Assembly: GCA_018402205.1 (NCBI GenBank)
Contig: JAGYIX010000003.1
Coordinates: 124,001 to 188,000, forward strand
DNA: 64,000 bases
Direction: 5' to 3'
DNA from: Flavobacteriaceae bacterium
Lineage (GTDB): Bacteria; Bacteroidota; Bacteroidia; Flavobacteriales; Flavobacteriaceae
This document shows, in pieces, positions 29,346 through 41,901 of this stretch (positions are counted from its first letter, which is position 1; each line of letters begins with the position of its first letter). A program made the position numbers and the translations under genes. Below the pieces are notes generated by a model. It saw only the letters and a list, made by a program, of their open reading frames with translations, had not been told where the DNA came from and made no database searches.

Positions 29346-32240
29346 ATGATACAGTCTGTCTTGTTTAATGATCTGAAACCTAGATTTAAAGGTGAGTTGC
29401 TTGAGGATGAACTCTATAGAGCCATATACGCAACAGATGCCTCGGTATACCAAATGAGCCCTTTGGGAGTGGCGTTTCCAACAAACGAAAGCGACCTTCA
29501 AGAGATTGTTAAATGGGCTAATACCAACGAGATAGCATTAATTCCTAGGGCTGCAGGCACCTCTTTAGCAGGACAATGCGTAGGTGAGGGCGTGGTGGTA
29601 GATACTTCAAAGTATCTTAATAAAATTCTCGATTTTGATGAAAAAGGCCGAAAAATTAGAGTTCAACCCGGGGTTATTAGAGACGAGCTTAATGCCTACC
29701 TAAAACCTTATGGATTATTTTTTGGCCCTAATACGTCTACAGCTAATAGGTGTACAATGGGCGGAATGGTGGGTAATAATAGTTCAGGAACCACCTCTAT
29801 TCGTTACGGAGTTACTCGCGACAAGGTGTCTGTTTTAAGGGCTGTTTTGTTTGATGGGTCTATTCATGAATTTGGTAGAGATTCGTCTGGATTACAGCAA
29901 AGCGAACAAGGAATAGCCATTGAGCAGCAACTGCTAGAAATGCTTTCTCAGCCAGGGGTAAAAGAAGAAGTACATGCACATTTTCCAAAAGCAGAAATCC
30001 ACAGAAGAAACACTGGATACGCGATAGATGCTCTTTTAAACGATCTTGATCTAGTAGATGGTAATAAACATTGGAATATCGCTAAACTATTATGCGGAAG
30101 CGAGGGAACTTTAGCGTTTACCTCAGAAATTGAACTTGATTTAGACGAAATACCTCCAGTACATGGCGCTATGGTGGTTACCCATTACAGCTCTTTAGAA
30201 GGTTGCCTAACGGATGTAGAAACAGTTATGAAACATCAGCTCTATACCTGTGAGATGATGGATAAGGTTATTTTAGATTGTACTAAAGGAAATAAACTGT
30301 ATAGTAGTACGAGAGATTTCGTCGAGGGAGACCCTCAAGCCCTGTTAATGCTCGAGATAAGAGCTCACACACACGAGGATCTAGAACTGCAAGTTGCTAG
30401 TTTATTAAGTTACCTAAAGCAACACAGCGCCAGTTACGCCTCTCCGGTACTCCAAGGAGAGTCTATCCAAAAGGCACATGAGTTACGAAAAGCTGGGCTG
30501 GGCCTATTAGGAAATATGATCGGTGATCAGAAGGCTGTTGCTTGCATAGAAGATACAGCTGTTGCGCTGTCTGACCTTAAGCCATTTATCATGGAGTTCT
30601 CTGCGCTTATGGAACGCCACAAACAACGCGCGGTTTATTATGCGCATGCTGGTGCCGGAGAATTACACTTAAGGCCCATACTCAATCTTAAAAAGTCTGA
30701 AGATGTCGTCCTTTTTAGGGCCATCACAACCGATGTCATGCATTTGACTAAAAAATACAAGGGCAGCTTTAGTGGTGAGCATGGAGACGGAATTGTTCGA
30801 GCTGAATTTTTACCTGAACTTGTCGGAGAAGCTAACTATCAATTATTCCAAGACATAAAGCGCTTATTTGACCCTAAGGGTATATTCAATCCAGGTAAAA
30901 TTGTGAACCCTTATCCAATGGATAAGTCACTTCGCTATGAGCCAAATCGTCAAGAGCCCAAACTAGAAACCTTTTTAGATTTTTCAGATTCACAAGGGTA
31001 TTTAAGAGCTATAGAGCAGTGTAATGGCAGTGGAGATTGTCGAAAAACCGAAGAGTCTCATGGAGGTATGTGCCCTAGCTATCACGCGAGTAGAGATGAA
31101 AAAGACACGACAAGAGCCCGCGCTAATGCTCTGCGCATGTTTATCACCCAACCAAACGAGCTGAGTGCCTTTGCCCATGAAGAGGTGGTGGAAGCCCTAG
31201 ACCTCTGCCTCAGCTGTAAGGCATGTGCAAGTGAGTGCCCATCTAATGTAGATATGGCCACTCTTAAGGCAGAATATCTATTTCAATATCAAGAAAAAAA
31301 AGGGTACAGTCTTCGAAGCCGCTTCTTTGCCTACAGTACGCATCTAAACAAGTTAGCTTCAAAGGTGTCTGTTATTTCTAATGCTCTATTTGCTAGTCCA
31401 GCGAGCTATCTGCTCAAAGGGTTATTGGGGGTAGCCAAAGAGCGGTCGCTGCCAAAGGTCTATTCCTTTAACTACCAAGAATATTACAGACAATTAACAC
31501 CGCCGGTAACTCCAGTAAAAGAAGTAGTGCTTTATATAGATGAGTTCAGTAGATACCTAGACGCCCCTTTGGTAAGAGCGGCTATAGAAACTTTAAATAG
31601 ACTAGGGTATAAGCTTCATTTGATATACACCGAAAGTGGAAGGGCTTTTATTTCTAAAGGATTCTTAAGACAGGCCAAACAATGTGCTCAACAAAGTATA
31701 GACGTGTTTAAGCCCTATCTCGATCAGCATTTAGAAATTATTGGATTAGAGCCTTCTGCTATTCTTAGTTTTAGAGATGAGTATGCCCGTTTGCTCCCAG
31801 AAGATCTGTACATTAAAAAACTGGCGACTAGCAGCCTTCTAATAGAAGAATTCTTGGTGAGAGAACTAAATGAAGGCCGAATAGACCCTTCTATTTTTAC
31901 CAAAGAGTCGAAGATTATTAAGGTGCATGTACATTGCCATCAAAAGGCGCATTCTAATCAAAAGGTCACTTTTGACCTGATTAATGCCGTACCTAATTAT
32001 AAGGTCACACTGATGGCAACAGGCTGCTGCGGTATGGCCGGATCTTTCGGTTATGAAAAAGAACACTACGACCTATCTATGCGCATTGGTGAATTAAAGC
32101 TGTTTAAGGCAGTGAGAAAAGCCAATAAAGACACACTAATTGTTGCTAACGGCACTAGTTGTAGGCATCAAATAAAAGATGGGGCGCAACGGCTTGCTTT
32201 ACATCCTATTGAGGTAATTGCTCAGGCTATCAATTCCTAA
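29346..32240 (+). CDS. FAD-linked oxidase with C-terminal Fe-S/heterodisulfide-reductase-like domain (D-lactate dehydrogenase/GlcD-GlpC-like)
   Basis: LIPRAAGTSLAGQCVGEGVVVD (FAD_binding_4), FSGEHGDGIVRAEFL, CLSCKACASECPSNVDM, HCHQKAHSN..., GCCGMAGSFGYE. Confidence 0.92.
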   Translation: MIQSVLFNDLKPRFKGELLEDELYRAIYATDASVYQMSPLGVAFPTNESDLQEIVKWANTNEIALIPRAAGTSLAGQCVGEGVVVDTSKYLNKILDFDEKGRKIRVQPGVIRDELNAYLKPYGLFFGPNTSTANRCTMGGMVGNNSSGTTSIRYGVTRDKVSVLRAVLFDGSIHEFGRDSSGLQQSEQGIAIEQQLLEMLSQPGVKEEVHAHFPKAEIHRRNTGYAIDALLNDLDLVDGNKHWNIAKLLCGSEGTLAFTSEIELDLDEIPPVHGAMVVTHYSSLEGCLTDVETVMKHQLYTCEMMDKVILDCTKGNKLYSSTRDFVEGDPQALLMLEIRAHTHEDLELQVASLLSYLKQHSASYASPVLQGESIQKAHELRKAGLGLLGNMIGDQKAVACIEDTAVALSDLKPFIMEFSALMERHKQRAVYYAHAGAGELHLRPILNLKKSEDVVLFRAITTDVMHLTKKYKGSFSGEHGDGIVRAEFLPELVGEANYQLFQDIKRLFDPKGIFNPGKIVNPYPMDKSLRYEPNRQEPKLETFLDFSDSQGYLRAIEQCNGSGDCRKTEESHGGMCPSYHASRDEKDTTRARANALRMFITQPNELSAFAHEEVVEALDLCLSCKACASECPSNVDMATLKAEYLFQYQEKKGYSLRSRFFAYSTHLNKLASKVSVISNALFASPASYLLKGLLGVAKERSLPKVYSFNYQEYYRQLTPPVTPVKEVVLYIDEFSRYLDAPLVRAAIETLNRLGYKLHLIYTESGRAFISKGFLRQAKQCAQQSIDVFKPYLDQHLEIIGLEPSAILSFRDEYARLLPEDLYIKKLATSSLLIEEFLVRELNEGRIDPSIFTKESKIIKVHVHCHQKAHSNQKVTFDLINAVPNYKVTLMATGCCGMAGSFGYEKEHYDLSMRIGELKLFKAVRKANKDTLIVANGTSCRHQIKDGAQRLALHPIEVIAQAINS

Positions 32241-33116
32241 TCAATCGTCATCGACCGAGCTGTCTTCGACGATTTCTATGTCACGTAGTCCTTCTTCTTT
32301 TTTTGTGATAGAAGCAATTAGTTCTTCTATATTCATTTCTTTGAGATCTTCATCTACAAAGAATGGCGAGAGCTTATCCTCACTGTACTGATATAATTTC
32401 CACCGCTTAAAGCTGTATTCTAACGCGGTTAGATTCTCTACCCAATCGCCGGAGTTTAAATAGGTGGTTTTTCCTTTGCTGTTTTGAAATACCTCCTTTT
32501 TTGGTTGATGAATATGGCCGCAAATCACATAGTCGTATTCGTTATCAATGGCCAATTCTGCAGCTACCCGCTCAAAGTTTTGAATGTATTTAACGGCTCC
32601 TTTTACGCTATTTTTAATGCGTTTAGATAGGGAATATTTTTCTCTACCCAACTTCAGTAAAGCCCAATTGACCGTCTGATTAAGAACAATTAGCAAATCG
32701 TAGCCCCATCCGCCTAGTTTAGCTAGCCACTTTGCGTTTTGTATAGAAATGTCAAAGACGTCTCCATGAAAAATCCACGCTTTTTCATTTCCAAGATCTA
32801 AGACCAGTTTATCACATATTTTAAAGCGCCCCATGGTATTACCTGAGAATTTTCGCAGCATTTCATCATGATTTCCTGTGATGTAATAAACGTCTGTGCC
32901 TTTAGAAGCCATTCCTATTATCTTTTTAAGCACTTTAAGGTGCGAAGACGGAAAGTAGCGCTTGCGAAATTGCCAGATATCGATGATATCTCCGTTCAAT
33001 ATGAGCTTTTTGGGCTCGATACTATTTAGATAGGTGATAAGTTCATCGGCGTGGCATCCGTAGGTTCCCAAATGAACATCTGAAATAATAGATATGTCAA
33101 TTTTTCGTTTCTTCAA
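32241..33116 (-). CDS. Calcineurin-like phosphoesterase, UDP-2,3-diacylglucosamine diphosphatase-like
   Basis: ISDVHLGTYG, LILNGDIIDIW, YYITGNHDEMLR, VICGHIHQPKKEVF. Confidence 0.85.
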   Translation of the reverse strand: MKKRKIDISIISDVHLGTYGCHADELITYLNSIEPKKLILNGDIIDIWQFRKRYFPSSHLKVLKKIIGMASKGTDVYYITGNHDEMLRKFSGNTMGRFKICDKLVLDLGNEKAWIFHGDVFDISIQNAKWLAKLGGWGYDLLIVLNQTVNWALLKLGREKYSLSKRIKNSVKGAVKYIQNFERVAAELAIDNEYDYVICGHIHQPKKEVFQNSKGKTTYLNSGDWVENLTALEYSFKRWKLYQYSEDKLSPFFVDEDLKEMNIEELIASITKKEEGLRDIEIVEDSSVDDD

Positions 33117-33262
33117 AACAAACTCGTGTCTACCTACGAATGTAAGGCAGTCTTTGGTACATAAAACTTAACTAATCGTGAACACTGTGATAATAAAAGG
33201 TTAAGGATAAAGTCTAGAAAAAGAGCGCTATTTTAGCCGCACAATCCTTAAATTCAAGGAAT

Positions 33263-34327
33263 ATGGCCTCAAATAGTTTCGGTTCTATCTTTAAATTAAC
33301 CTCTTATGGCGAATCTCATGGTCTAGCATTAGGAGGAATTATTGACGGTTGTCCGGCAGGTGTGCCAATCGATGAAAGTTTAGTGCAAATAGATCTAGAT
33401 CGCCGAAAGCCTGGCCAATCAAAAATAACCACCCAGCGAAAAGAGGCAGACAAAGTGGTTTTTCACTCAGGTATATTTGAAGGAAAAACTACCGGAACTC
33501 CTATTGGCTTTAGTATAGAAAACACGAATCAGCGCTCTAATGACTATTCGCATATTAAAGATTCCTATCGACCTTCTCATGCCGATTTTGTTTACGATAA
33601 AAAATATGGGGTGCGCGATTATAGGGGTGGAGGCCGCTCTTCGGCTAGAGAAACAGTTGCTCGGGTTGTTGCCGGCTCTATTGCTAAACAATTTATTGCT
33701 CCCATACATATTCAAGCCTACGTAAATCAAGTGGGGACACTACGACTAGATCAGCCATATACTACCCTAGATATAACCCAAGGAGAAGAAAACATAGTAA
33801 GGTGTCCTGACCCTATTATGGCCGAAAAAATGATCAATTATATCAGTGAGATCAAGAAAAAAGGAGATACCGTAGGCGGGGTGATTCGCTGTGTGGTTAA
33901 ACACGTTCCAGTTGGGCTAGGGGAGCCCGTTTTTCAAAAACTTCACGCTAATCTAGGGGCCGCAATGCTCTCTATCAATGCCGTCAAGGCCTTTGCTTAC
34001 GGAAGTGGTTTTGAGGGTGCTGCCATGTTCGGAAGTGAGCATAATGACTATTTCAATGCCGACGGAACCACAAAGACCAACTACAGCGGAGGTATTCAAG
34101 GAGGTATATCTAATGGTATGGATATTTATTTTGATGTGGCATTTAAGCCAGTTGCTACTATTTTACAGCCCTATGAATCGCTAACCACTGAAGGAACTTT
34201 AGAAGAAACCCACGGCAAAGGAAGGCATGACCCTTGTGTTGTGCCCAGGGCGGTTCCGATTGTTGAGGCAATGGCCGCACTCGTTTTCGCTGATCATTTG
34301 CTTATGAACAGAAATACAAAAATCTAG
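33263..34327 (+). CDS. aroC: Chorismate synthase
   Basis: [84 protein letters not shown]. Confidence 0.98.
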
Positions 34328-34333
34328 CGTACT

Positions 34334-35653
34334 ATGGCACTGCATTGGAAGATAGTTATTGGAATGGTAATGGGACTGCTTTTCGGGTTTTCCATGACTT
34401 TTTTCTCTTGGGGTAATGGTTTTGTGACCAATTGGATACTACCTATTGGAACCATTTTTGTACGGCTTCTTAAGCTCATTGCAGTACCTCTTATTTTGGC
34501 CTCTTTAATAAAGGGCATCTCAGATTTAAAAGATATCGCCAAATTTAAAGACATGGGGCTAAAAACCTTTGGCCTTTACATGATGACTACGCTAGTGGCT
34601 ATTTTTATAGGCCTTTCACTAGTAAACATTTTTGTTCCTGGTGATGGTATTAGTCCAGAAACCGTTGAAAAATTGACTGCCACCTACGCAAACGATAGTG
34701 GAGTCACTTCAAAAATCGCTTCGGCCAGCGCCCAACAACAAGCAGGGCCGTTGCAGTTTGTGATAGACATGGTACCTGATAATGTCTTTTATGCGTTATC
34801 CGATAATGGATTGATGTTACAGGTTATCTTTTTTGCTATTTTCTTCGCTATTTCTATGCTACTAATTGGCGAACAGAGAGCTAAACCTATCAAACAGTTT
34901 TTTGACACTCTAAATGAGGTAATTCTTAAAATGGTAGACTTAATAATGCTTACAGCTCCTTATGCTGTTTTTGCCTTACTTTCAAGTGTTGTCGTTTCTA
35001 GTAATAACCCGGAATTGTTAATAGCACTCATGAAGTATTCCGGTCTTTTAGTATTCGGATTGTTCTTGATGATTCTGTTTTACATGATGCTCATAAAGGT
35101 GGTGGTGAAAATGGATCCGTTTTGGTTTATTACTAAGATTAGTCCAGCTCAATTATTGGCGTTTTCAACTTCATCTAGTGCAGCTACACTACCGGTTACC
35201 ATGGAGCGCCTTGAGGAGCACGTAGGTGTAGACCAAGAGGTTAGCAGTTTTGTTTTGCCGGTAGGAGCAACCATAAATATGGATGGAACAAGTGTATATC
35301 AGGCTATTGCAGCTGTTTTTATTTCTCAAGCGCTTGGCTTTGATTTAACCTTGGGAAATCAATTAACCATTATCTTAACGGCGTTGTTAGCCTCTATTGG
35401 TGCTGCTGCAGTTCCAGGTGCGGGCATGGTAATGTTGGTTATTGTATTAGAGTCTGTGGGGTTTCCGGCAGATAAGTTAGCTATAGGATTGGCGCTAATT
35501 TTTGCCGTTGATCGCCCATTAGACATGTGTAGAACAGTAGTCAATGTTACAGGAGACGCTACGGTGGCGACAATAATTGCAAAGAAATTAAACAAATTAA
35601 ACACCCCTAAACCCAAAAATTGGGATGATCACCTAGACGGCCTTAAGAATTAA
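34334..35653 (+). CDS. Dicarboxylate/amino acid:cation symporter (DAACS family)
   Basis: STSSSAATLPVTMERLEE, GATINMDGTSVYQAIAAVFISQA, DRPLDMCRTVVNVTGDA. Confidence 0.95.
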   Translation: MALHWKIVIGMVMGLLFGFSMTFFSWGNGFVTNWILPIGTIFVRLLKLIAVPLILASLIKGISDLKDIAKFKDMGLKTFGLYMMTTLVAIFIGLSLVNIFVPGDGISPETVEKLTATYANDSGVTSKIASASAQQQAGPLQFVIDMVPDNVFYALSDNGLMLQVIFFAIFFAISMLLIGEQRAKPIKQFFDTLNEVILKMVDLIMLTAPYAVFALLSSVVVSSNNPELLIALMKYSGLLVFGLFLMILFYMMLIKVVVKMDPFWFITKISPAQLLAFSTSSSAATLPVTMERLEEHVGVDQEVSSFVLPVGATINMDGTSVYQAIAAVFISQALGFDLTLGNQLTIILTALLASIGAAAVPGAGMVMLVIVLESVGFPADKLAIGLALIFAVDRPLDMCRTVVNVTGDATVATIIAKKLNKLNTPKPKNWDDHLDGLKN

Positions 35654-35670
35654 AATTAACCTTTCACCCT

Positions 35671-36702
35671 ATGCATATTTGTTTTCTGATGTACCCTTGG
35701 GAGAACATCAATCCAGAAAGAGACACTACACTCACTTTCATTCATGAGTGCGTGCTCAGGGGGCATAAAGTTGCCCTTTGTACACCAGGAAACCTTACCA
35801 TTCGCGATAGAGTCACCTCGGCCTTTTGTCAAGTGATTAACCAACCCGCCAAAGTTTCTCTAAGTATTAAGAACTTTTACAAGGGGTGCACGTTTAAACA
35901 TCAAATGCTTCCTTTAGCAGGTTTTGATTGCATTTTTATGCGGGCTAATCCGCCCATGGACCCTTTAATGTTGAACTTTCTAGACAGTGTTAAAGACGAT
36001 GTATTCATTTTAAATTCTATTGAAGGCTTAAGAGAGGCGAACAATAAGTTATATACAGCTGCTTTTGGAAATATTCACGAAGATATTATTCCCAATACAC
36101 ACGTTTCTAAAAATAAAGAATACCTCATTCGACAAATTGAAGATTCGCCGTCGGACAAGATGATTCTTAAGCCGTTAAATGGGTACGGTGGTTCAGGAGT
36201 GATTTTAATAGAGAAATCAGCCATGAAAAACATCAATTCCCTGTTAGACTTTTACCTGACCAACTCAGACGGATCGGTTAATTATGTCATTTTACAGGAG
36301 TATGTAGAAGGAGCAGAGAAGGGAGACATTCGTATTTTATTATTAAATGGAGAGCCCATTGGGGCGGTTAGACGTGTTCCGGATGCTAATGATTACAGAT
36401 CAAACCTTTCGGCGGGTGGGTCTTACCAAAAGCACACCTTAACTAAACACGAAATCAATATTTGTAAAAGAATTGGCCCAAAGCTGGTTAATGACGGACT
36501 CTACTTTGTTGGCATTGATGTGATAAACGGAAAATTGATTGAAGTAAATGTGCTGTCACCTGGTGGGGTAGTGCCTGTGAATAAAATGAACAAAACTAAA
36601 GTACAACGCAAAGTAATAGATTTCATAGAGGAGAAGGTCAATGATATGCTTTTTAAAATTCATCGCCGCTCTAAGTTGCGTTCAGAGGTTCAAGATTCTT
36701 AA
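35671..36702 (+). CDS. ATP-grasp protein, glutathione synthetase-like
   Basis: FMRANPPMDP, MILKPLNGYGGSGVILI, ILQEYVEGAEKGDIRILLLNGEPIGAVRRVP, YFVGIDVINGKLIEVNVLSPGG. Confidence 0.9.
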   Translation: MHICFLMYPWENINPERDTTLTFIHECVLRGHKVALCTPGNLTIRDRVTSAFCQVINQPAKVSLSIKNFYKGCTFKHQMLPLAGFDCIFMRANPPMDPLMLNFLDSVKDDVFILNSIEGLREANNKLYTAAFGNIHEDIIPNTHVSKNKEYLIRQIEDSPSDKMILKPLNGYGGSGVILIEKSAMKNINSLLDFYLTNSDGSVNYVILQEYVEGAEKGDIRILLLNGEPIGAVRRVPDANDYRSNLSAGGSYQKHTLTKHEINICKRIGPKLVNDGLYFVGIDVINGKLIEVNVLSPGGVVPVNKMNKTKVQRKVIDFIEEKVNDMLFKIHRRSKLRSEVQDS

Positions 36703-36717
36703 GCCTATGAACTTGGG

Positions 36718-37524
36718 ATGGTAGCAGCGTTGAACATAAAAGAGATAATAGCGCTTATAGATAGAAAAGTACCCTTCGAGGCCATTGAAGAAAGTGGTTG
36801 CTTCTATATCAAAATCGATCGTTATGTTCCGATGTTAGCTGCCGCTATTCACGACGGGCATCATTTACCAGAAGATCTTAGCAAACAATGTGCATTATCA
36901 GAGGTCGAGCGGTTATATGAAGAAGATCCGCATACTGCGACCTTTATTAAAGATTGCCCTATTGTTTTTGTTGGGCTTGATAGTCGGTACTATTATGATC
37001 TCAACCGAATGCCCAATGAAGCTCTTTATGAGGTAGCTTGGGGAAAGCCTGTTTGGAAGATTCCCTTAAGCGAGGCTCAAAAAACTGAAGCAATGGAACG
37101 CTATTTTCGATGCTACCGCGTTGTTCACCATCTTATTACTTCTTTGGAGCAGGTTTTTGTCGATCAACCACTGTTAGTATTTGATATCCATAGCTACAAC
37201 TATAAACGCTGGGAGAGGAAAGTTCCAGAAATAAATATAGGCACTTCTCAAATTGACCATGCCCGCTGGGGGCATTATATTGAGCGTTATATAAACCTAT
37301 TATCTAATGCTTTTGACTCCTTTTGGGTAGCAGAGAATAACACCTTTTTTGGTAAAGGTGCATTTTTAAAACAATTAATGGATCAGCACTCTAGTTGCTT
37401 GGTATTCGCCACCGAGTTTAAAAAATACTTTTGTGACGAGCTAACAGCAGTGGTCTATACCGATAAAGTAGAAGAAACCACGTTTAGACTTAAAAGCGTT
37501 ATTGACAAAATGCTTACACCCTAA
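36718..37524 (+). CDS. N-formylglutamate amidohydrolase family protein
   Basis: AAIHDGHHLPEDL, VFVGLDSRYYYDLNR, LLVFDIHSYNYKRW..PEINIGTSQID. Confidence 0.82.
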   Translation: MVAALNIKEIIALIDRKVPFEAIEESGCFYIKIDRYVPMLAAAIHDGHHLPEDLSKQCALSEVERLYEEDPHTATFIKDCPIVFVGLDSRYYYDLNRMPNEALYEVAWGKPVWKIPLSEAQKTEAMERYFRCYRVVHHLITSLEQVFVDQPLLVFDIHSYNYKRWERKVPEINIGTSQIDHARWGHYIERYINLLSNAFDSFWVAENNTFFGKGAFLKQLMDQHSSCLVFATEFKKYFCDELTAVVYTDKVEETTFRLKSVIDKMLTP

Positions 37525-37527
37525 CAT

Positions 37528-38676
37528 ATGAGTGCATCATTTACAAAACTTCATCAAATTGATCTACGACTTTACCAATTACTAAATAAAGTCGAATTAT
37601 TGCTCTACATAAACCCTATAAATGCAGAAAAAGAGCGGCAAAAATTTTACAAGAGCAAGTACCATACAAACCCTGTTTTTAGATACCCCAAATGCACATT
37701 AAACGTGCGTGCTATCCGAAAGGAGCTATTTAAACTCAAAATGCAAAATATTGAAAATGAAGCTATTGCAGAGATGTATGAGCAAGTTCGTTGGTATTTT
37801 AGCGGTATTCTGGATTGTATTGAGCATGTAGGCAAAACCGAACTGTTTCTGCGTTCGAGTCTAAAAACATTTGGCGCACCCTCTGAATTAGACATCAAAC
37901 GGGCAAGGATAATTATAAAGGCGTCCATGAATAAGTTAGATTCAAAGCGCGATAATAGCCTTCATTCTACCGAAGAAGCGCTACACTATATGAAGGCGTT
38001 TGTGAATAAATATGGTTTTGAGGTGAGTGTTAAGTCGGCTATGCACATAAGCTCCAAGGCTATGGTAAGTAATAGTAAAAAGTCAGTGATACTTAAAAGA
38101 GGTGAGCGCTTTTCGGCTTTAGAGCTAGAGGCTCTAGCCAACCACGAAATTGGCGTGCATTTAGTAACCACCTTTAATGCGGATAATCAGAAGCTTAAAC
38201 TATTTAGTTTGGGATTTCCGTTCAATGTTCAAACACAAGAAGGTTTGGCTGTTTTGGCGGAGTATAACGCGGGTACCTTAGATTTTAATAGAATTTTTGA
38301 ATTAGCTGTAAGGGTAGTACTTGCAGACAATGTTATTAAAGGACACTCGTTTGCTAAAAGTTTTGATCAACTAGTTGAAGACTTCAAACTTCCTAGAGAC
38401 CATGCCTTTAAACTTGTAACACGTCTATACAGAGGTGGAGGATTTACAAAAGATCGTTTGTATCTACCTGGTTTTCTTGACCTGTTTCACCAAGGTGTAG
38501 ATAGTAAATTTATAGATTGGTTACTGGCCGGTAAGACCGCTTCTGAATACTATTACGTCAAGCCTATTTTAGAGGAGCATGAGTTACTGCTTCCCAATAA
38601 ATACCAAAGTGGCTCCTTTACCACCGTAAAAGCACTAAACAAAGAAGTAACTCAATTACTCCATCGTCTGAAATAA
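37528..38676 (+). CDS. Flavohemoglobin expression-modulating QEGLA motif protein (DUF1704; tyrosine carboxypeptidase-like metallopeptidase)
   Basis: LEALANHEIGVHLVTTFN (HExxxH) and NVQTQEGLAVLAEY (QEGLA). Confidence 0.92.
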   Translation: MSASFTKLHQIDLRLYQLLNKVELLLYINPINAEKERQKFYKSKYHTNPVFRYPKCTLNVRAIRKELFKLKMQNIENEAIAEMYEQVRWYFSGILDCIEHVGKTELFLRSSLKTFGAPSELDIKRARIIIKASMNKLDSKRDNSLHSTEEALHYMKAFVNKYGFEVSVKSAMHISSKAMVSNSKKSVILKRGERFSALELEALANHEIGVHLVTTFNADNQKLKLFSLGFPFNVQTQEGLAVLAEYNAGTLDFNRIFELAVRVVLADNVIKGHSFAKSFDQLVEDFKLPRDHAFKLVTRLYRGGGFTKDRLYLPGFLDLFHQGVDSKFIDWLLAGKTASEYYYVKPILEEHELLLPNKYQSGSFTTVKALNKEVTQLLHRLK

Positions 38677-38698
38677 GACACTAGCATGTAGCCCAAAT

Positions 38699-38998
38699 CT
38701 AAAAAGAATAAGGGAACACACTAAAGAGAAAAGACCACCATGGCTTAGGGCTCAAGTGCCTGCAAATTTCACTTATAGCCTCGGATCTTATAAACCAGCC
38801 CTCGCCGGGTTTAATAAGTATTAATGTTTTATCTGCCAATCGTGCGTCTATTCCCCTTTCTTTTAACCATATAGCTGTTTGATTAGAGCCTGAAGACTCG
38901 AATGCAAAGTGCTGTCTCTGATCTCTTTTTGCCACCCAATCTATAGATGCGGTACAAAAGTTGCATTTCGCATCGTAAATAATAGTGGGCTTGTTCAT
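38699..38998 (-). CDS. Thiol-disulfide oxidoreductase DCC family protein (DUF393)
   Basis: IIYDAKCNFCTASIDWVAKRD: D-x-x-C-x-x-C at N-terminus. Confidence 0.85.
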   Translation of the reverse strand: MNKPTIIYDAKCNFCTASIDWVAKRDQRQHFAFESSGSNQTAIWLKERGIDARLADKTLILIKPGEGWFIRSEAISEICRHLSPKPWWSFLFSVFPYSF

Positions 38999-39004
38999 GG
39001 TGAC

Positions 39005-41158
39005 TTAATGTTTTTCCAATTTAGATAGATGCACTTTGGTAGTAAACATTCCGTAATTGACTGTGGCAATCTCTTTTTCAATAGTGTCTATGGTTCCTGT
39101 AGATTTACTGTCTTCTAAACGCACTTTATCACCCACTTTAAAACTAGAAATATCTGGTTTCGCCTTAACTTTTTTCTTAACTACGGCGTTTTTAGTAACT
39201 GGTAAAGTCTTTAAATCGTCTTTAAGTTCAGATTCTTGTGCTTGTTTTGATTTACGCTCGTTTTTGACCGTCTCGACATTCTTTTTCTTTCGCTTGCTAT
39301 TTTCAGTCTCTACTAGGTGAATAAGGCTACCTATTAAGTTGCGCTTCTTTTGATCTACAAAATAGCGCTCTGATAGCTCATCGAGTTTTTGACCAAGCTG
39401 TATCATGCGCTGGTGGTAATCGTAAAGCTGCTGGTAGTTTTTTAATTTGTCGTCTAATTTTTCATTTAGTTTTTCGAGTTTTTCAGCTTCACTCTTGGCG
39501 CGTTTAGATTGCTCTTCTAAAACTGACTCTGTTTTGGTCATTTTAGACCGCTCTTTTTGCAGCTTAGCAATTGTCTGATCAAATCGAACTTTACCGCCTT
39601 CAATCTTTTTCTTGGCTCGATTTAAAAAGCGATAGGGAATGCCATTCTTTTCAGCCACCTCGAAGGTAAAAGAACTTCCGGCTTCTCCAAGAACGAGCTG
39701 GTAGGTGGGCTCTAAACTGGAATTATCAAAAAGCATGTTTGCATTAGTAGCGTGTGCTAATTCATTGGCTAATAGCTTCAGATTAGAGTAATGCGTGGTT
39801 ATAACACCGTATGCAAGACGTTCATAGAATTCTTCAAGAAAAACCTCAGCTAAAGCTCCACCTAACTCTGGGTCAGAGCCCGTACCAAACTCATCGATTA
39901 AAAACAAGGTAGTGTCGTCACACTTATGCAAAAATTGCCGCATATTCTTTAAGCGGTAGCTATACGTGCTTAAGTGGTTCTCAATAGATTGATTATCCCC
40001 TATATCTGTCAAAAAATTCTCAAATAAACAAACTGTGCTTGCCCGGTGAACCGGAATTAGAACCCCCGCCTGTAACATAAGCTGAAGTAAGCCCACAGTC
40101 TTTAAAGTGATGCTTTTTCCTCCTGCATTTGGCCCTGAAATAACAATGATTCGGTTCTCTGGGTGCAGTTCAATGGTTTGTGGCTTGGTTAATCGATTTT
40201 CTTTTTTATTCTGAAGCAGTAGTAACGGGTGGTAGGCATCTTTTAAAAACAGTCTACGCCCATTATTTAGCGTGGGCATAATACCTCCAATTTTTTGCCC
40301 GTATTTGGCTTTAGCGGCAATGACATCAGTATGCACTAAGTAGTCAACATAAAGCTCAATATCGCGTTTTGAAGGGCGGATAAAATTGGTAAGTTCCACT
40401 AAAATTCTGCGGATCTCTTGTGTTTCTTCGTAGACTAAATCAGCGAGATCTCTAGAATACTTCTGTGTAGATTCGGGTAAAATATATACTATAGAGCCTG
40501 TTTTTGAATTCCCTAAAAGCGACCCCTTTACCTTTCGTCTATACATAGATTTAACCGCGAGAACACGTTGATTTTCGATAACCGATTCACGAATTTCATC
40601 TAAATAGTCTAGCTTGGTGTACTGATTAAGGGCAGCGCCAAAGCTTTGATTGATCTTTGATCTTACCTCATTTATACTTCGTCTTAAGTCTATTAAAACC
40701 GGAGAGGCATTGGATTTAATTACCCCAAAACGGTCAATCACCAAGGCGATTTGCTTTTTTATCTCTGGTTGATACACTAATGCATCTAATCGCGTAGACA
40801 GGGTAGGATAGTAGTCGTTAAACTTTTTAAAGAACTTGTGATGCGCCTCAAAAAGTTCGCAAACCTGAGCTATGCGCTGAAACCCTTCGGGCTCTATCGC
40901 GGTATTTTCTATTCTAAGTAAACTTAATTCTTCATTTATGGGCTCAAAACCATGATTGGGGATGCGATTTTCATTATCAAAACTCGACAAGTATTCCGAA
41001 CTGTAGCTCAGTGCCTGAAACACTTCAGATTCCGAAAAATAAATAGGCAAATCTTTTACTAAATCACGCCCCTTCTCGGTGTGACAAAGTAAAGCGATTT
41101 GTTCACAGACCGTAGTGAATTCGAGATCGGCTATCGCCTTATGAAAAAGTGAGTTCAT
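39005..41158 (-). CDS. mutS2: MutS2-family ATPase
   Basis: VISGPNAGGKSITLKTVGLLQLMLQAGVLIP, FLIDEFGTGSDPELGGALAEVFLEE, VITTHYSNLK. Start placed at ATG 41158; ORF track begins at GTG 41170. Confidence 0.93.
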   Translation of the reverse strand: MNSLFHKAIADLEFTTVCEQIALLCHTEKGRDLVKDLPIYFSESEVFQALSYSSEYLSSFDNENRIPNHGFEPINEELSLLRIENTAIEPEGFQRIAQVCELFEAHHKFFKKFNDYYPTLSTRLDALVYQPEIKKQIALVIDRFGVIKSNASPVLIDLRRSINEVRSKINQSFGAALNQYTKLDYLDEIRESVIENQRVLAVKSMYRRKVKGSLLGNSKTGSIVYILPESTQKYSRDLADLVYEETQEIRRILVELTNFIRPSKRDIELYVDYLVHTDVIAAKAKYGQKIGGIMPTLNNGRRLFLKDAYHPLLLLQNKKENRLTKPQTIELHPENRIIVISGPNAGGKSITLKTVGLLQLMLQAGVLIPVHRASTVCLFENFLTDIGDNQSIENHLSTYSYRLKNMRQFLHKCDDTTLFLIDEFGTGSDPELGGALAEVFLEEFYERLAYGVITTHYSNLKLLANELAHATNANMLFDNSSLEPTYQLVLGEAGSSFTFEVAEKNGIPYRFLNRAKKKIEGGKVRFDQTIAKLQKERSKMTKTESVLEEQSKRAKSEAEKLEKLNEKLDDKLKNYQQLYDYHQRMIQLGQKLDELSERYFVDQKKRNLIGSLIHLVETENSKRKKKNVETVKNERKSKQAQESELKDDLKTLPVTKNAVVKKKVKAKPDISSFKVGDKVRLEDSKSTGTIDTIEKEIATVNYGMFTTKVHLSKLEKH

Positions 41159-41199
41159 CTTTGAATTCACAAAGATAAAGGCTTTGGCTATCTTTAAGT

Positions 41200-41901
41200 A
41201 TGATTTTTACATTTCCGACTTCCGGATGGGAGGGGCTCTTTAAACAAGCAGAGATCGATCAAATTATCGGCTCTTTATCCTCTTGGCTAATCAAAGAATA
41301 TGACGAAGATCTATGCACCCCAAATCAAGAACACATATTTAGCGCTTTTCAAAATTGCCCTGAGCAGAAGGTAAAAATCGTAATTATAGGACAAGACCCT
41401 TATCCGGCTAAGGGAGTGGCTGACGGAATGGCTTTTTCTACTCAAAAATCAGCGCTTATTCCTGCCTCGCTTAGAAATATCTTAACCGAAAGCAAAAATA
41501 CGCAAGCGAAAAATGGCCATTTAAATTTTTGGGCGAGCCAGGGTGTTCTTTTATTGAACACGGTGCTTACCACTCGGGTCAATAAGGCTAATAGCCATCG
41601 AAATAAGGGTTGGGAGGTATTCACCGAGGCTGCAATTCGCTATTTAGCTGCGAAAAAGCAACCGATGGTTTTTATGCTCTGGGGAAATCAAGCTAAAAAA
41701 CTAGCTAAACCATTAAGAGCGCTAAGTCATATTTTAGTGCTAGAGAGCGGTCATCCTTCGCCCTTGAGTGCCAATAGAGGGCATTGGTTTGGAAACAATC
41801 ACTTTCAACTAGCGAACGATTTTTTACTAAAAAAAGGTTTGGAACCGGTCGAGTGGAACTTATCCGCCGACCCGCTTAACCGTGAACCCACACTCTTTTA
41901 A
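41200..41901 (+). CDS. ung: Uracil-DNA glycosylase
   Basis: VIIGQDPYPAKGVADGMAFS, LLLNTVLTTR, HPSPLSANRG. Confidence 0.97.
   Translation: MIFTFPTSGWEGLFKQAEIDQIIGSLSSWLIKEYDEDLCTPNQEHIFSAFQNCPEQKVKIVIIGQDPYPAKGVADGMAFSTQKSALIPASLRNILTESKNTQAKNGHLNFWASQGVLLLNTVLTTRVNKANSHRNKGWEVFTEAAIRYLAAKKQPMVFMLWGNQAKKLAKPLRALSHILVLESGHPSPLSANRGHWFGNNHFQLANDFLLKKGLEPVEWNLSADPLNREPTLF

Follow-up and report, generated by a model that had tools for sequence, protein, structure and literature searches.

What reaction might bring together a relative of glutathione synthase, a relative of N-formylglutamate amidohydrolase and a relative of the eukaryotic MATCAP carboxypeptidases in three consecutive genes? The locus lies in a window of 64,000 nucleotides (the whole stretch of DNA analysed here) taken from a flavobacterial genome of 1.68 Mb that is about 90% complete. 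Each of the three families is known and their co-occurrence is visible in public annotation. A 2009 comparative genomics survey by Iyer, Aravind and colleagues reportedly covers operons that pair ATP-grasp peptide ligases with peptidases, which the trio resembles generally in joining a ligase and hydrolases in one operon. Our literature search found no paper describing the trio as a system or pathway, with the proviso that the 2009 survey may mention it. The names under which the proteins circulate in public databases, “glutathione synthase” for the ligase and a flavohemoglobin-based name for the peptidase, are both probably misleading.

Three Genes and Their Surroundings

All three genes are on the + strand. 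The first (35671..36702, 343 aa; PF02955, PF02951, NF009110) codes for a predicted GshB-like ATP-grasp amide ligase of the PRK12458 subfamily, clade A; the second (36718..37524, 268 aa; PF05013) for a protein with the N-formylglutamate amidohydrolase fold, a putative zinc amidohydrolase or carboxypeptidase-like enzyme hereafter called NFGA; and the third (37528..38676, 382 aa; PF08014) for a predicted zinc metallocarboxypeptidase of the MATCAP/QEGLA (DUF1704) type. By the positions of the open reading frames in the window, 15 nt separate ligase and NFGA and 3 nt separate NFGA and MATCAP. The original prediction of three same-strand genes with these gaps was accurate to the nucleotide, the motifs it quoted (KPLNGYGGSGV, EVNVLSPGG, DIHSYNYKRW, NHEIGVH, and QEGLA) were all located in the three reading frames, and its assignment to the ATP-grasp, N-formylglutamate amidohydrolase-like and DUF1704 families agrees with the Pfam and NCBIfam matches.

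The trio sits in a block (window 29346-41901) composed of an ldh-like FAD/Fe-S protein, a phosphoesterase, chorismate synthase, an SDF-family symporter, the trio itself, a DCC1-like gene, mutS2 and ung, the order of which is maintained across many Flavobacteriaceae. The sodium:dicarboxylate/amino-acid symporter of the SDF family (34334..35653, + strand; PF00375, 406.9 bits) ends 17 nt upstream of the ligase gene and is probably co-transcribed with the trio in the window; as a fourth member of the unit it was rejected, since congeners without the trio retain it at this position. Two other interpretations of the locus were also discarded. A defense system is disfavored by the lack of any PADLOC match and by the stable, housekeeping character of the neighborhood; a RiPP precursor in the cassette is disfavored by the gaps of 15 and 3 nt and by the lack of a conserved small open reading frame, the one candidate, of 111 aa, being present in only 17 of 80 loci, where it lies between a rhodanese-like gene and NFGA. 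Such a rhodanese-like gene stands between ligase and NFGA mainly in the Winogradskyella group (L052-L082 and others).

Inheritance as a Single Unit

Among 41 related genomes, MATCAP was found in 15 and a strong PRK12458 match in the identical 15, with FGase (PF05013) in the same 15 plus one further genome. A sample of 250 Bacteroidota genomes gave MATCAP in 16 and PRK12458 in 16; the two were common to 15 genomes and adjacent in every one of these (15/15), with FGase/NFGA alongside in 13. Fisher's exact test on co-occurrence returned very small values, which overstate independence as the genomes are related; even with this kinship allowed for, the trio co-occurs far beyond chance. Across 80 named loci, nearly all from Flavobacteriaceae, the prevailing order is ligase-(rhodanese)-NFGA-MATCAP, and the median gap between NFGA and MATCAP is -1 nt.

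Within the genus, the trio is absent as a whole from 5 of 13 genomes. The SDF and DCC genes stand 134-139 nt apart in congeners without it vs. 3044 nt in a filled congener; SDF-DCC-mutS2 is kept in all five trio-less congeners, and the four that were read more widely preserve everything from ldh to ung. Exactly three genes are thus missing while the symporter stays; it is therefore the cassette that is gained and lost, to the exclusion of the symporter. The trio is one inherited module, gained and lost, fused and evolving together. The gene-neighborhood and phylogenetic-profile analysis that the original prediction had proposed as a check accordingly found the genes co-inherited and adjacent rather than scattered. 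Rapid evolution of the hydrolases was considered as a sign of genetic conflict and dismissed, their identity within the genus being 56-60% and that of ung and DCC 51-54%.

The Ligase and the Glutathione Label

PRK12458 (NF009110) is the best-fitting subfamily for the ligase (443.9 bits, cut-off 408), which also matches GSH-S_ATP and GSH-S_N in Pfam (PF02955 and PF02951). The PRK05246 glutathione-synthase equivalog is matched at 286.2 bits, above its cut-off of 272, and TIGR01380 at 239.2 bits, below its cut-off of 299. RimK models match as well, the similarity to GshB being far closer than to RimK or to tubulin-tyrosine ligase (TTL), and the closest solved structure is that of E. coli GshB (1gsa, E = 1.3e-38), with which the ligase shares its GSH-S_N plus ATP-grasp architecture.

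The alignment to E. coli GshB, whose reference sequence was that of the 1gsa match apart from a few terminal residues, separates two sides of the active site by the residue roles of the E. coli enzyme. On the presumed ATP/Mg side, K125, K160, Q198, D208, R210, D273, E281, and N283 are kept in clades A and B. The predicted ATP-binding glycine-rich loop KPLNGYGGSGV (36169..36201, + strand) has K167, P168, L169, N170, G171, G173, and G174 invariant in alignment A4, and the putative metal-binding E and N followed by SPGG lie in EVNVLSPGG (36541..36567, + strand), where E. coli GshB has SPTC. On the acceptor side, D9 is replaced by Y in clade A or N in clade B, T288-C289 by GG almost throughout clades A and B, and the N-terminal loop around N15 is altered or shortened; the acceptor side of the E. 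coli enzyme is thus not preserved in the window's ligase.

A profile search for gshA in the window's genome, about 90% complete, covered the two bacterial families, as distinct from the eukaryote-type GCS, and found no protein of PF04107 or PF04262. Likewise, 22 of the 29 trio genomes (15 of the relatives plus 14 of the phylum-wide sample) have neither family; a PF04107 protein is encoded in the remaining seven, and in four of these (G019, G282, G216, G255) its gene adjoins a separate FGase gene. “Glutathione synthase,” which the original prediction had already doubted, is probably the wrong label on this sequence evidence, because no gshA of the tested families is present and the E. coli acceptor side is not kept. 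Since the PRK05246 cut-off is passed, this case is evidence, not proof. Production of glutathione, or of a closely related gamma-glutamyl thiol, from gamma-Glu-Cys that is taken up or made by an unrecognized enzyme would fit the ligase's membership of the GshB family, that passed cut-off and the retention of R86, N114, K125, K160, R225, R233, and N235. We regard it as very improbable all the same: besides the missing gshA families and the changed acceptor residues, the ligase is linked to two hydrolases, one of them, MATCAP, in 15/15 phylum-sample genomes that share both, and the genome of E. coli, the home of gshB, has no MATCAP.

The Two Hydrolases

NFGA belongs to the FGase family (PF05013, 63.7 bits, cut-off 28.9). 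Its AlphaFold2 model (pLDDT 89.3) has as best Foldseek match the N-formylglutamate amidohydrolase 2q7s (TM 0.67), followed by M14 carboxypeptidases, a fold shared by the tubulin deglutamylases. Four motifs are conserved: IHDGH (36847..36861, + strand), a predicted metal/active-site element with H45 and G47 invariant in alignment A2; SRxxxDLNR; DIHSYN (37183..37200, + strand), with D156, H158, S159, Y160, and N161 invariant in the same alignment; and TEFxK. Pfam family and fold (TM 0.60-0.69 to 2q7s and 2odf) are those of the HutG-family enzymes, from which NFGA differs in its low identity (14-17%), its own DIHSYN...PxxNxGT signature, its occasional fusion to MATCAP and its genomic setting: no hut (histidine-degradation) genes lie beside the trio at this locus, the adjacent identified genes being those for chorismate synthase, SDF, DCC1-like, MutS2, and UNG.

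The third protein belongs to PF08014 by score (261.7 bits, cut-off 27), by its HExxxH and EG motifs and by its predicted MATCAP fold, and falls short of the TIGR02421 QEGLA equivalog (281.5 bits, cut-off 338.65), which its homologs from Photobacterium and S. meliloti exceed. The kinship of DUF1704 with MATCAP put forward in the original prediction is borne out by profile comparison with human MATCAP (7z5g, E = 1.7e-12) and by the model (pLDDT 88.4; TM 0.61-0.71 to 7z5g/7z6s). The predicted zinc-binding and catalytic HExxxH motif is NHEIGVH (38140..38160, + strand), with H206, E207, and H211 invariant in 41 sequences, and QEGLA (38236..38250, + strand; Q237, E238, and G239 invariant) would provide a third metal ligand, E238, as the counterpart of EEG in TMCP1/MATCAP1 (PMC10499314). 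MATCAP1/TMCP1 is a proven carboxypeptidase acting on acidic tubulin tails, and its full activity on them needs the glutamates of HExxxH and EEG (PMC10499314), the counterparts of which are invariant in the 41 sequences. Compared with MATCAP1/TMCP1 (KIAA0895L), the human enzyme that removes tyrosine from tubulin, the window's protein has about 18-19% identity, QEG in place of EEG and no tubulin target, being bacterial and encoded in an operon with a ligase. Bacteria are not discussed in the MATCAP preprint, and with the trio its bacterial relatives acquire a defined set of partners and a reaction that can be tested.

Clades, Fusions, and Incomplete Variants

Trees of the ligase and of MATCAP each split into clades A and B and show the same sub-clades within B. 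In three Bacteroidota genomes (G028, G029, G084), NFGA and MATCAP form a single protein; the same fusion occurs in Photobacterium sp. DA100 (L128), where the ligase gene precedes it and overlaps its predicted start. Clade B, hosted by other Bacteroidota, Mesorhizobium, S. meliloti (pSymB), and Roseateles, has the order NFGA - (N-terminal domain + MATCAP) - ligase. Its N-terminal domain matches the NFGA profile with 95% probability, lacks the IHDGH and DxHS motifs, and is probably, judging from sequence, a degenerate copy of NFGA. The rhizobial NFGA/QEGLA/“glutathione synthase” operon (S. meliloti pSymB and Mesorhizobium; also Roseateles) thus has the same three families side by side, but differs from the trio in its clade, its gene order and this fusion. 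The module is spread over Bacteroidota, Vibrionaceae, and rhizobia. In two genomes (G143, G159), ligase and NFGA of clade A occur together with MATCAP and ligase of clade B, and one sub-clade has MATCAP and ligase alone (L004, L017, L019, L123, L124), with MATCAP fused to the degenerate NFGA-like domain.

NFGA is missing from the variants G092, G282, L004, L017, and L019, and a strict cycle of three steps can therefore not be universal. The earlier interpretation of the trio as a single functional module is upheld by co-presence, whole-cassette absence, fusion and congruent trees; an obligatory place for NFGA within it is not. Also counted for the module is the clade-A MATCAP of G019, which has no clade-A ligase or NFGA beside it and in which two of the metal-ligand positions are gone (HEIGVN, QAG); counted against it, besides the passed PRK05246 cut-off, are seven Flavobacteriaceae loci (Arenibacter, Maribacter, Flagellimonas/Allomuricauda) where MATCAP is intact with neither ligase nor NFGA next to it. 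MATCAPs without a ligase partner in Pseudoalteromonas, Legionella, and G226 fall outside clades A and B in the tree.

In Vibrio sp. HDW18 (L127:6140-8131), an NFGA-MATCAP fusion has no adjacent ligase gene; its NFGA part is degenerate (AIHAGS, DMYAYN) and its MATCAP motifs are intact.

Response to Salt in Photobacterium damselae

In P. damselae RM-71, the genes annotated as GshB (A0J47_RS17020) and QEGLA (A0J47_RS17025) were up 38.4-fold and 27.5-fold, respectively, at 1% vs. 3% NaCl, and RimK was up 52-fold (PMC10308900). Annotation, consecutive locus tags and the arrangement in Photobacterium sp. DA100 suggest that RS17020/RS17025 belong to a clade-A module. Expression or mutant results reported for “GshB” may concern a PRK12458-type paralog; the 38-fold salt-regulated gene of P. 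damselae is a likely case.

A Proposed Ligase/Hydrolase Module and Competing Readings

The alignments and models show genetically linked genes with a complete predicted ATP/Mg set in the ligase and conserved putative catalytic motifs in the hydrolases; from these we infer the direction of the reaction, its glutamyl theme and a target molecule shared by ligase and hydrolases. The reading that we prefer, with a probability of roughly 0.55, is a module in which the ligase would act on a glutamyl peptide or tail, making an amide bond there, and the product would be trimmed or reversed by the hydrolases. The ligase would use ATP to attach an amino acid, glutamate or a glutamyl peptide by the themes of the families, to an acceptor carboxylate; NFGA and MATCAP would cut amide bonds beside acidic residues; and together they would yield a glutamyl-type peptide cap that could be adjusted, probably in the cytosol, and that would be independent of glutathione. 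The glutamyl theme is suggested by the substrates of NFGA and MATCAP. As the acceptor we moderately favor a small peptide over a protein tail, because the GshB architecture handles small acceptors.

Were the acceptor a protein, the ligase might add an amino acid to a C-terminus or side chain in the manner of RimK or tubulin-tyrosine ligase, and MATCAP and NFGA might remove it, as in the tubulin tail cycle. The RimK matches of the ligase and the M14 carboxypeptidase fold of NFGA, which tubulin deglutamylases have too, would suit such a cycle, as would the action of MATCAP relatives on protein tails (PMC10499314); we nevertheless judge it unlikely, as the ligase carries a GSH-S_N domain and is far nearer to GshB than to RimK or TTL, and the cassette encodes no conserved target protein. 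In its boldest form, bacteria would have their own version of the tubulin tail cycle: the ligase would add an amino acid to a protein or peptide with an acidic tail, MATCAP with its M14-like partner would remove it, and the result would be an adjustable, salinity-responsive mark. This is a speculation that we hold with still more reserve; if true, MATCAP-type carboxypeptidases would belong to a ligase/peptidase cycle in bacteria too. In a route without any cycle, biosynthetic or scavenging, the hydrolases would act on a peptide that is imported or left as waste, releasing an amino acid or removing an acyl group, and the ligase would assemble a different small peptide for storage, osmotic or redox purposes. 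Such a route draws on the symporter that adjoins the trio in many genomes and on the rise in expression at low salt in P. damselae (PMC10308900). This too seems improbable, given that the symporter persists without the trio and is not adjacent to it in many loci, e.g., in Aquimarina.

Related Arrangements

Stand-alone MATCAPs with the HExxxH variants HEGWVH or HEAYVH (L129, L130, L110) form an outgroup, and the solo MATCAP gene of Legionella adelaidensis lies between dapA, with one small gene intervening, and murI. In a second type of operon, FGase stands beside a PF04107 carboxylate-amine ligase (L029/L020 at G019:C14 about 602000-605000; G282:C12 273433-275165; G216:C42 9793-11599; G255:C5 281408-283239), and the G019 operon also adjoins a RimK-like ATP-grasp protein with an RLAN domain; hydrolases of the FGase fold thus recur with peptide ligases.
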